Positions 28,256 to 31,077 of a stretch of 64,000 nucleotides of DNA are shown here, piece after piece (positions within the stretch are counted from its first letter, which is position 1; each line of letters begins with the position of its first letter). The stretch lies in NCBI GenBank assembly GCA_937872895.1, contig CALMUP010000017.1, positions 1 through 64,000 of the forward strand, read 5' to 3'. The stretch comes from an uncultured Verrucomicrobiota bacterium. Its GTDB lineage: Bacteria > Verrucomicrobiota > Kiritimatiellia > CAIVKH01. The notes under the pieces are model-generated. The model was given only the letters and a program-made list of their open reading frames with translations. It ran no database searches and was not told the origin of the DNA. Position numbers and translations under genes: made by a program.

Positions 28256-28423
28256 TACGAACGACGCACCCTATATTCCCCATCCGTGGTTCAACGTCTT
28301 TTCCACGCTTCTTTCGCGCATTTCGCGTTTTTCGTAGTTCACCCCCCTCCCCGAGTTTCCCGCCATCCAACTTCCCGCGAAGTGCTGTTTCCTTCCGCCC
28401 CGTTTCCTGCTATCAGTGATCCC

Positions 28424-29404
28424 ATGAAGATCACCCCCATCCTCGCCTCGCAGTTCACCTCGGACGGCGGCACCATGTTCGGCCTCGTCCCGAAACCGAT
28501 CTGGTCCCGGCTGATCAAGCCCGACGCCGAGAACCGCATCCCGCAGGACGCCCACGCACTGCTGGTCGAGCTCGATGACGGACGCCTCGGCCTGATCGAC
28601 ACCGGTTGCGGTCCCGCCGAGAAATTCACCGAACGCGAAGCCACCCTCCACGGCCTCGGTCCCGGCTGGCCCCTGCTCGAACGCCTCGCCGCCCTCGGCA
28701 TCGACCGCACCGCCATCGCCTTCGTCGTCTTCACGCACCTCCACTGGGACCACGTCGGCGGCGCCTCGATGGGCACCCCCGGCCACCTCGAACCCGCCTT
28801 CCCCCACGCCACCCACTTCACCACCGCCCTCGAATGGGAGGACGCCACCTCCGGCGACCCGCTGCTCTACAAATCCTACCCGCCCGAAGCCATCGCCCCG
28901 CTGCACCAGCTTCCGTCCGCCCACCTCCAACGCATCGGCGCCGAACGCAAGGAAATCCTCCCCGGCATCACCCTCGTGCGCTCTTCCGGCCATACCCGCG
29001 GCCACGCCGTCGTCGTACTCGACCACCCCGATGGCATCGAGATCGTCCACCCCGAATCGATGTTCATGTTCCCGCCCCGCCGCGCCGTATTCGCCGGCGA
29101 TGTCTGCCCGATGCGCCACAACCTGCGCCTCGTCTTCCAGACCTCCTACGACACCTTCCCGCTCGACACCCGCCGCTGGAAACGCAGCTGGCTCCCCGAA
29201 CTCGCCCAGGACGGCACCCTGCTCCTGTTCGACCACGATCCCGACCTCTTCGGCGCGACCATCAAACCCCACGAACGCCGCGAATTCGCCATCGACAAGA
29301 CCCTCCACACCGCCCTGTCCGCCCACGCCGCCCAATCCCTCGCCGCCCTCGAGAAAAAAGGCCGCCTCGTCCTCTACAAGGACCAGGACTTCATCACCGG
29401 CTAA
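28424..29404 (+). CDS. Metallo-beta-lactamase-fold hydrolase
   Basis: A 326-residue cytoplasmic protein with the MBL metal motif THLHWDHVGG, a DTGCGPAEKF stretch before it, SSGHTRGHAVVV and FAGDVCPMRHN after it, the standard order of a two-metal MBL site. The family includes lactonases, glyoxalases and many unassigned hydrolases. This one resembles the broad quorum-lactonase/UPF-type group, but the substrate cannot be named. The ATG at 28424 has no Shine-Dalgarno site. The extended -10 TGcTATCAG ends 7 nt before it. It lies alone between two repeat-filled gaps. Confidence 0.85.
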   Translation: MKITPILASQFTSDGGTMFGLVPKPIWSRLIKPDAENRIPQDAHALLVELDDGRLGLIDTGCGPAEKFTEREATLHGLGPGWPLLERLAALGIDRTAIAFVVFTHLHWDHVGGASMGTPGHLEPAFPHATHFTTALEWEDATSGDPLLYKSYPPEAIAPLHQLPSAHLQRIGAERKEILPGITLVRSSGHTRGHAVVVLDHPDGIEIVHPESMFMFPPRRAVFAGDVCPMRHNLRLVFQTSYDTFPLDTRRWKRSWLPELAQDGTLLLFDHDPDLFGATIKPHERREFAIDKTLHTALSAHAAQSLAALEKKGRLVLYKDQDFITG

Positions 29405-29418
29405 ACCACCGCCCCGCG

Positions 29419-29825
29419 ATGAACCCGCTTAACGTATCAACCCAAGAAAACGAATGGATATCCCCTCGGATGATGATCCCCGCCTTTATCGGCGAGCGAA
29501 GCGAGACGATGCGTGAACACCTGGATTCGTCGGGCAAACGGTTTGCGCTTCCAGCGCGAACCGTTTAGCGGGCGGGTGGTCGGATGTGCGGTGATTTCAA
29601 GGCGGAGCCGCGAGGGCTGGACTCCCGTCCGCCCACGCGGCTCCAACACAGAAAGCGCCGTACATCCGGCCGCACGCCCGGCGGCCCGACGAATCCAGGT
29701 ATCATCCAACCACCGCCCACGTCCCGTCCCGCAATGAACCCGCTCGACGCCCATAACGCCGCCATCACCGCGTGCCGCGCCTGCCCGCGGCTTATCGCCT
29801 GGTGCGAACAGGTCGCCCGCGACAA
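29419..29825 (+). pseudogene. Truncated duplicate starts of the uracil-DNA glycosylase gene
   Basis: From 29734 the first 30 codons of the downstream glycosylase gene are repeated with only one base change (29793 versus 30218). The frame then leaves the family sequence at 29826. Further upstream, ATGAACCCGCTTAACG at 29419-29434 matches the gene start at 14 of 16 bases and is also preceded by a CCACCGCC word, so it seems to be an older third copy. Neither fragment can make a functional enzyme. Confidence 0.85.
29519..29700. mobile_element. MITE-like element, copy 1
   Basis: A 182-bp element bounded by perfect 17-bp inverted repeats, ACCTGGATTCGTCGGGC (29519-29535) and its complement (29684-29700). 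Inside are nested inverted repeats: AAACGGTT with AACCGTTT around paired GCGC, CGGATGT with ACATCCG, and GGAGCCGCG with CGCGGCTCC. It has no coding capacity. No target-site duplication was found. The structure is seen directly; mobility is inference. Confidence 0.7.
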
Positions 29826-29943
29826 AGGACACACGCAGCCAGTACCAACCATCACGCTCAGCCATAAAGCAGGAAAAAGAACGGACATGAAACGGGATGA
29901 TGTCTTGGTTTTATCGGCGAGCGAAGCGAGACGATGCGTGAAC

Positions 29944-30125
29944 ACCTGGATTCGTCGGGCAAACGGTTTGCGCTTCCAGCGCGAACCGTTTAGCGGGCGG
30001 GTGGTCGGATGTGCGGTGATTTCAAGGCGGAGCCGCGAGGGCTGGACTCCCGTCCGCCCACGCGGCTCCAACACAGAAAGCGCCGTACATCCGGCCGCAC
30101 GCCCGGCGGCCCGACGAATCCAGGT
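29944..30125. mobile_element. MITE-like element, copy 2
   Basis: Identical to the element 425 bp upstream. Its right end is 33 bp before the ATG of the glycosylase gene, and CCAGGTATCAT at that boundary could supply a -10 box (TATCAT) for the gene. Confidence 0.7.
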
Positions 30126-30158
30126 ATCATCCAACCACCGCCCACGTCCCGTCCCGCA

Positions 30159-30833
30159 ATGAACCCGCTCGACGCCCATAACGCCGCCATCACCGCGTGC
30201 CGCGCCTGCCCGCGGCTGATCGCCTGGTGCGAACAGGTCGCCCGCGACAAGAAGGCCGCCTACCGCGACCAGCCCTACTGGGGCCGACCCGTTCCCGGTT
30301 TCGGCGACCCCGCCGCCCGCCTGCTCCTCGTCGGCCTCGCCCCCGCCGCCCACGGCGCCAACCGCACCGGCCGCATGTTCACCGGCGACCGCTCGGGCGA
30401 CTGGCTCTACCGCGCACTGCACAAGGCCGGCTTCGCCAGCCAGCCCACCTCCACCGCACGCGACGACGGCCAGACCCTGCGCGACGCCTACATCAGCGCC
30501 GTCGTCCGCTGCGCCCCGCCCGGCAACAAACCGCTCCCCGCCGAACGCGACGCCTGCATCGGCTACCTCAACCGCGACCTCGACCTGCTTCCCGACCTCC
30601 GCGTCCTCGTCTGCCTCGGGAAATTCGCCTGGGACGGCCTGCTCGCCCTGATGAAACAACGCGGCCACACCCCCGCCCCCGCCCCCGCCTTCGGCCACGG
30701 TGCCGAAACCACCCTCGGCCCCTACCACCTGCTCGGCTCCTACCACCCCAGCCAGCAGAACACCTTCACCGGCAAACTCACCGAACCCATGCTCGACGCC
30801 ATCTTCACCCGCGCCCGCACCCTGCTCCGCTGA
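30159..30833 (+). CDS. Type-5 uracil-DNA glycosylase (UdgB family)
   Basis: A 224-residue DNA repair enzyme that removes uracil and other deaminated bases. The family-5 motif GLAPAAHGANRTGRMFTGD is nearly intact and has alanine where other families have the catalytic aspartate. The later motif LLGSYHPSQQNTF and Fe-S cysteines in ITACRACPRL, VRCAPPGNKP and VLVCLGKF fit as well. The ATG at 30159 is weakly supported by RBS evidence but begins the family similarity. The upstream region holds a duplicated structured element and two truncated copies of this gene's start, so its promoter has been rebuilt recently. Confidence 0.92.
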   Translation: MNPLDAHNAAITACRACPRLIAWCEQVARDKKAAYRDQPYWGRPVPGFGDPAARLLLVGLAPAAHGANRTGRMFTGDRSGDWLYRALHKAGFASQPTSTARDDGQTLRDAYISAVVRCAPPGNKPLPAERDACIGYLNRDLDLLPDLRVLVCLGKFAWDGLLALMKQRGHTPAPAPAFGHGAETTLGPYHLLGSYHPSQQNTFTGKLTEPMLDAIFTRARTLLR

Positions 30834-30847
30834 ACCCGCACACCGAT

Positions 30848-31077
30848 GTCGCGAAAGGGCAACCCGGAGGTTGCCCCTCCCGTAACGCCACAACCGTTTT
30901 CGACATGCTGGAGGGTCGAGCTCCCGCGAGACCGGTTCATCGATACCGGGTCAGACTGAAAACACCCTTCCGGTTTTTCGTGTGGTTCGTAGTCGCGAAA
31001 GGGCAACGTGGAGGTTGCCCCCCCGTAACGCCACAACCGTTTCCGACATGCTGGAGGGTCGAGCTCCCGCGAGACCG
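30848..31077. repeat. Paired GGGCAACC-hairpin / CTCCCGCGAG repeats
   Basis: In the 412-bp gap 30834-31245, an 87-bp unit at 30848-30934 recurs at 30992-31077 with few changes. Each begins TCGCGAAAGGGCAAC, has a hairpin (GGGCAACC-cgga-GGTTGCCC in the first), and ends with CGAGCTCCCGCGAGACCG. Frames across it give MLEGRAPARP, a known repeat-derived false peptide. No gene is seen in the gap. Confidence 0.88.

Follow-up and report, generated by a model that had tools for sequence, protein, structure and literature searches.

A palindromic repeat in front of a uracil-DNA glycosylase gene, copied in tandem with the first 30 codons, most likely through recombination with another repeat copy

Anatomy of the glycosylase locus

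In the window, the whole 64,000-nucleotide stretch of DNA that we analysed, a gene of the uracil-DNA glycosylase (UDG) superfamily is separated from a metallo-beta-lactamase-fold gene by remnants of gene starts and by two copies of a dispersed element that we call E. The features of the locus are as follows.

28286..29404, + strand: metallo-beta-lactamase-fold gene upstream of UDG; longest ORF, stop TAA at 29402-29404; Pfam PF00753, E 2e-9
29405..29434, + strand: G0, original UDG start, decayed, ATG at 29419-29421; assigned from its match to the gene start and from the position of the empty site in G001
29444..29467, + strand: purine-rich stretch, taken as the degenerate 5' tail of E copy 1; similar tracts precede GGATGATG in most E copies; 19-nt similarity to F2, equalled by 29/1000 shuffles
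29468..29707, + strand: E copy 1 (E1), GGATGATG...ATCATCC, 240 nt; delimited by alignment with the genome's other E copies
29519..29700, unstranded: palindromic 182 bp of E copy 1, with 17-bp arms, a variable side hairpin, a long inner stem and a conserved internal loop
29708..29825, + strand: G1, leader and first 30 UDG codons, truncated, ATG at 29734; from the repeat end and translation
29826..29869, unstranded: F2, foreign spacer, not matched well anywhere else in this genome or in 19 relatives
29870..29909, + strand: 5' tail plus the initial 15 nt of E copy 2, whose subtype here differs from that of copy 1; from matches to the E copies at L011 and L009
29895..30132, + strand: E copy 2 (E2), a hybrid of a foreign 5' block and a body equal to copy 1
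30133..30158, + strand: G2, leader sequence before the intact UDG gene
30159..30833, + strand: intact UDG-superfamily gene, 224 aa; Pfam PF03167, E 2e-27
29734..30162, + strand: open frame that begins at the truncated start and crosses F2 and E2; from translation, its stop TGA overlapping the intact gene's start (ATGA)

Self-alignment of the locus located a direct repeat of 341 bp at 29485-29825 and 29910-30250 with an offset of 425 bp and an identity of 340/341, in agreement with the first-pass annotation of this DNA. The repeat consists of 308 exact bases, a T/G difference at 29793/30218 and a further 32 exact bases, and its sole mismatch is synonymous in UDG (CTT/CTG, leucine in both). Each copy holds a UDG start codon, at 29734 in copy 1 and 30159 in copy 2, followed by gene sequence to a total of 92 nt or 30 codons, which bears out the earlier description of each copy as a 182-bp element plus the first 30 UDG codons. 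That element is indeed present in both copies, but the real element is larger, spanning 29468-29707 and 29895-30132. The truncated UDG start is in frame with the open frame that crosses F2 and E2 and ends at the intact gene's ATG. Since long open frames are common in such GC-rich DNA, the frame at 29734-30162 is probably due to chance. Downstream of UDG, at 30848-31077, lies a second hairpin-rich repeat in two copies of ~86 nt with a spacing of 143-144 (GTCGCGAAAGGGCAAC..., ...GGAGGGTCGAGCTCCCGCGAGACCG).

The assembly comprises 51 contigs and the direct repeat exceeds usual short-read k-mers, so an artefact of assembly or strain mixture in this draft, probably metagenome-derived, genome has to be considered. 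We regard it as quite unlikely, because the repeated block adjoins the unique F2 at either end, which means that both junctions exist in some real DNA, and because the E copies differ in their 5' block.

Element E in this genome and across the class

E, a hairpin-forming repeat, is dispersed and non-autonomous and resembles miniature transposable elements (MITEs) and YPAL palindromes. As MITEs are, it is short (~240 nt), non-coding and scattered over the genome, here with 12 full copies and a single short one, and the copies elsewhere in the genome are 71-88% identical to the pair at the UDG locus. Its termini in this genome form a 7-bp inverted repeat, GGATGAT/ATCATCC, with the arms lying internally. 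When folded as a single strand, the palindromic 182 bp (29519-29700 and 29944-30125) reach -87.4 kcal/mol (z = -14.3, with 0/200 shuffles as good). Next to its 17-bp arms the structure has a side hairpin whose sequence varies and a long stem that encloses a conserved internal loop. One copy (L029, 1457-1514) lacks the whole inner stem and retains the arms and the side hairpin. The E copies of this genome show no target site duplication of consistent offset. No autonomous parent with E's ends was found in it, the arm motif occurring there only as E pairs and as scattered hits with one mismatch. A comparison of E with the covariance models of Rfam 15 gave nothing near any gathering score, and a known Rfam structured RNA was rejected as the identity of E since no family matched.

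Elements in G001 and G004 have entirely different arms and the same 117-nt core as E. Across 15 core sequences, 97% of the cells pair, and compensatory changes occur in 29/46 pairs, compared with a mean of 16 after shuffling and at most 14 when the partner strand was slid; intrastrand correction of palindromes can give the same pattern, so this covariation is not proof of an RNA. With a covariance model at E <= 0.001, the core was found in 26/266 genomes of the class, the copy numbers per genome being lower bounds, as no more than 13 were scored in any one genome. In G145 the members of the core family carry 17-bp terminal inverted repeats and, in most copies, target duplications of 9-10 bp, from which we conclude that the family is mobile there. 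A pattern with this genome's E arms had no match among GTDB genomes, the exact core pattern had none in viral contigs, and nothing on such repeats was found in the Kiritimatiellota literature. The family appears to be undescribed so far, a class-wide set of folded repeats in which the core is conserved and the ends differ between genomes. If the core is functional, the question is what selects for a hairpin of fixed length in a mobile element.

Tandem E pairs at offsets of 345-525 bp exist in other genomes (G004, G030 and G306), so the neighbourhoods of E do rearrange. At L212 of G004 (754-1441), two tandem E-core elements at a 370-bp offset share 97% identity, against at most about 94% with other copies, suggesting a local duplication there too. 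Among the other E copies of the present genome none has a significantly duplicated flank (for the candidate at L008, 155/300 shuffles were as good), and we therefore attribute the duplication in front of UDG to that locus and not to a standing property of E.

Two successive events at the gene start

Comparison with related genomes, a check suggested in the first-pass annotation, found the locus without an insert in G001, a member of the same genus. The metallo-beta-lactamase gene also lies upstream of UDG in G001 and in G018. The G001 orthologue of UDG is 78% identical with the same starting residue, and its ATG stands 16 nt past the upstream stop. G0 lies 14 nt past the metallo-beta-lactamase stop, at the same place as the start in G001. 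It matches the UDG gene start without gaps at 19/21 positions, which 0/1000 dinucleotide shuffles equalled, and over the longer stretch 29409-29434 the match is 22/26, so the third, decayed gene start that had been reported earlier is real. Because G001 has its start directly behind the upstream gene, G0 marks the original UDG start, the working start having been moved downstream by inserted DNA, and the region from the decayed start to 30158 is a later addition. An older duplicate of ~30 nt (AACCACCGCC...ATGAACCCGCT..ACG) has a right copy that starts exactly at E's end. This looks like an insertion of E with a target duplication of ~30 bp. In such a first step E would have inserted at the UDG start, leaving G0 upstream and a working start downstream; the basis for it is a single old, diverged duplication with an 11-nt indel, other E copies being without target duplication. 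YPAL palindromic elements make target duplications of 3-26 bp (PMC2229807), and for E a duplication of comparable kind, of ~30 bp, is seen at the UDG locus only.

As to the recent event, the body of E2 is 100% identical to that of E1, with other copies reaching at most 88%, whereas the first 17 nt of E2 match the E copy at L011 exactly and do not match E1. The left tail of E2, on the F2 side, is 80% identical to the E copy at L009 over 40 nt. For this reason the purine-rich 19-nt stretch common to the spacers is most readily explained as E's degenerate 5' tail. It is what stands of the earlier remark that the spacers share short words, and the similarity is weak, with 29/1000 shuffles equal to it. 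The type of 5' block does not go with the type of body in the family: the bodies at L008 and L009 are 93% identical, yet their 5' blocks are unlike, from which we infer that E copies exchanged ends earlier. E2 thus combines the 5' block of another copy with the body of E1, that is, a hybrid repeat at the junction. In Streptococcus pneumoniae, a fragment consisting of a repeat and its non-repeated flank gives rise to tandem duplications with such a hybrid repeat at the junction (PMC3784515). Together these features point to recombination of E copies at ectopic sites or to a template switch from one copy to another; one junction lies within codon 31 of UDG. Clear microhomology at this UDG-side junction is limited to a few bases at most (AAGG is possible), and the donor of F2, a spacer of ~40 nt, was found neither in this 95%-complete assembly nor in the 19 relatives.

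Had the whole segment of flank, E and gene start simply been duplicated in tandem, the flanks F1 and F2 could have decayed while conversion preserved the identity of E and of the gene start. Tandem copies often undergo conversion, and F1 and F2 do have the one purine-rich 19-nt stretch in common. They are otherwise unrelated, however; F2 read as a decayed gene start was rejected, as 282/1000 shuffles were as good, and the 5' block of E2 equals that of another locus and not a decayed one. Plain duplication is for us a distinctly improbable origin.

A separate transposition, in which an E belonging to the other 5' subtype entered codon 31 and duplicated ~118 bp of target, would account for the order of partial gene, filler, E and full gene, the same anatomy as that left by the older event, and target duplications of variable length are known for YPAL elements (PMC2229807). 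The ~118 bp, however, far exceed the YPAL range of 3-26 bp and would have to begin exactly at the right end of E1, and the ~220-nt body of the new E would have to equal E1 at every base when other copies reach no more than 88%. We consider it unlikely, though somewhat less so than plain duplication. A broader proposal is that the core of E has a function as a folded module of DNA or RNA and is maintained class-wide while arms and terminal repeats change, that E's own movement makes long target duplications with switched 5' ends (compare target-primed copying), and that both UDG events reflect one unknown transposition mechanism; we offer this as speculation with little probability.

We prefer recombination between E copies as the second step. 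Another E copy with F2 as its left flank would have paired with the resident E, the incoming 5' end being joined to the resident body somewhere in roughly the first 50 nt of the element, and the F2 flank would have been joined to UDG codon 31 without long homology. The step would have brought in ~40 nt of foreign flank and duplicated E and the gene start, yielding the order E1, truncated gene start, F2, hybrid E2 and intact gene, with a tandem duplication of 341 bp. Such a product could arise by uptake of E-bearing DNA, with one-sided homology and end joining, or by template switching between E copies during replication. The whole two-step account, an insertion of E followed by E-E pairing that gave the hybrid E2 and the 341-bp repeat, is in our estimate somewhat probable. 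At least two successive events are supported, the older being responsible for the decayed start and the recent one for the 341-bp repeat.

The first-pass annotation had proposed repeated events that rebuilt the promoter of the repair gene each time; the dispersed nature of the element and the hybrid make-up of its copy 2, shared with another locus, had gone unnoticed there. Successive events at one place are upheld; the promoter part is not, as a scan of 29380-30260, which covered promoters of the sigma-70-like type only, found no promoter, and no terminator was found there either. Before the events UDG probably shared the transcript of the upstream gene, as G001 UDG follows that gene by 16 nt. 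That each event gave the gene a promoter or leader as a regulatory adaptation is highly improbable: the start codon follows the end of E after 26 nt and palindromic repeats can change transcript stability (ERIC, PMC2229807), but no promoter-like or terminator-like site is present, the gene was operon-like earlier, and the neighbours of E elsewhere are of various kinds, among them a ruvA-like gene (named by eye from sequence) with E on its 3' side. Each event resulted in a truncated start on the upstream side and a complete gene on the downstream side, an outcome to be expected in any case, because selection for a working UDG, if it is needed, leaves such products. We saw no sign that the duplication benefits the cell. 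The locus is a clear case of genome rearrangement at a repeat, and no new kind of regulation.

Comparison with known palindromic repeats

This repeat-driven rearrangement is a well-marked example of how palindromic repeats lead to tandem duplications, hybrid repeats and partial genes. Like YPAL/RU-2, ERIC and similar enterobacterial palindromic intergenic repeats (PMC2229807), E is dispersed, encodes no protein and forms a long stable stem-loop, and it may resemble YPAL in its internal inverted repeats and, at the UDG locus, in an unusually long target duplication. It differs from YPAL/RU-2 and ERIC in being larger (240 nt) and GC-rich, in its two-hairpin fold with a conserved internal loop, and in belonging to another phylum. 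Like prokaryotic MITEs, the members of the E core family in G145 have terminal inverted repeats, of 17 bp, and for the most part target duplications of 9-10 bp, whereas E here has only the GGATGAT/ATCATCC ends, no target duplications at other copies and no parent transposon that we could find.

The IS1380 MITEs of G018 have arms similar to those of E (CCTGGATCCGTCAG versus CCTGGATTCGTCAG), and one copy lies between the same two genes. They are unlike E in their length of 163 bp, their 5-bp target duplications and their IS1380 parents of ~1658 bp. An IS1380 origin of E was rejected, since a search for an IS1380 transposase found none in this genome and the arms differ in the E relatives of G001 and G004. 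The copy in G018, which belongs to another family, is at L034 (1290-1452) between metallo-beta-lactamase and UDG, and its arms are a close match to E's; as G018 has 117 such MITEs, this placement may be chance. REPINs, which are mobilised by RAYT transposases (PMC3116915), are extragenic palindromes as E is, E being far longer. The genome has 14 matches to Y1 (IS200-like/RAYT) transposases, of which loci L061-L068 cover eight, and no E motif lies within 1.5 kb of the Y1 genes at these eight, so a RAYT/REPIN nature of E was rejected on the lack of proximity to the genes examined. Also comparable are the repeat-mediated tandem duplications of PMC3784515. The duplicated segment at the UDG locus is only 341 bp and its other junction is without long homology, but here, as there, a repeat appears to have paired with another copy, made use of that copy's flank and left a hybrid repeat at the junction.
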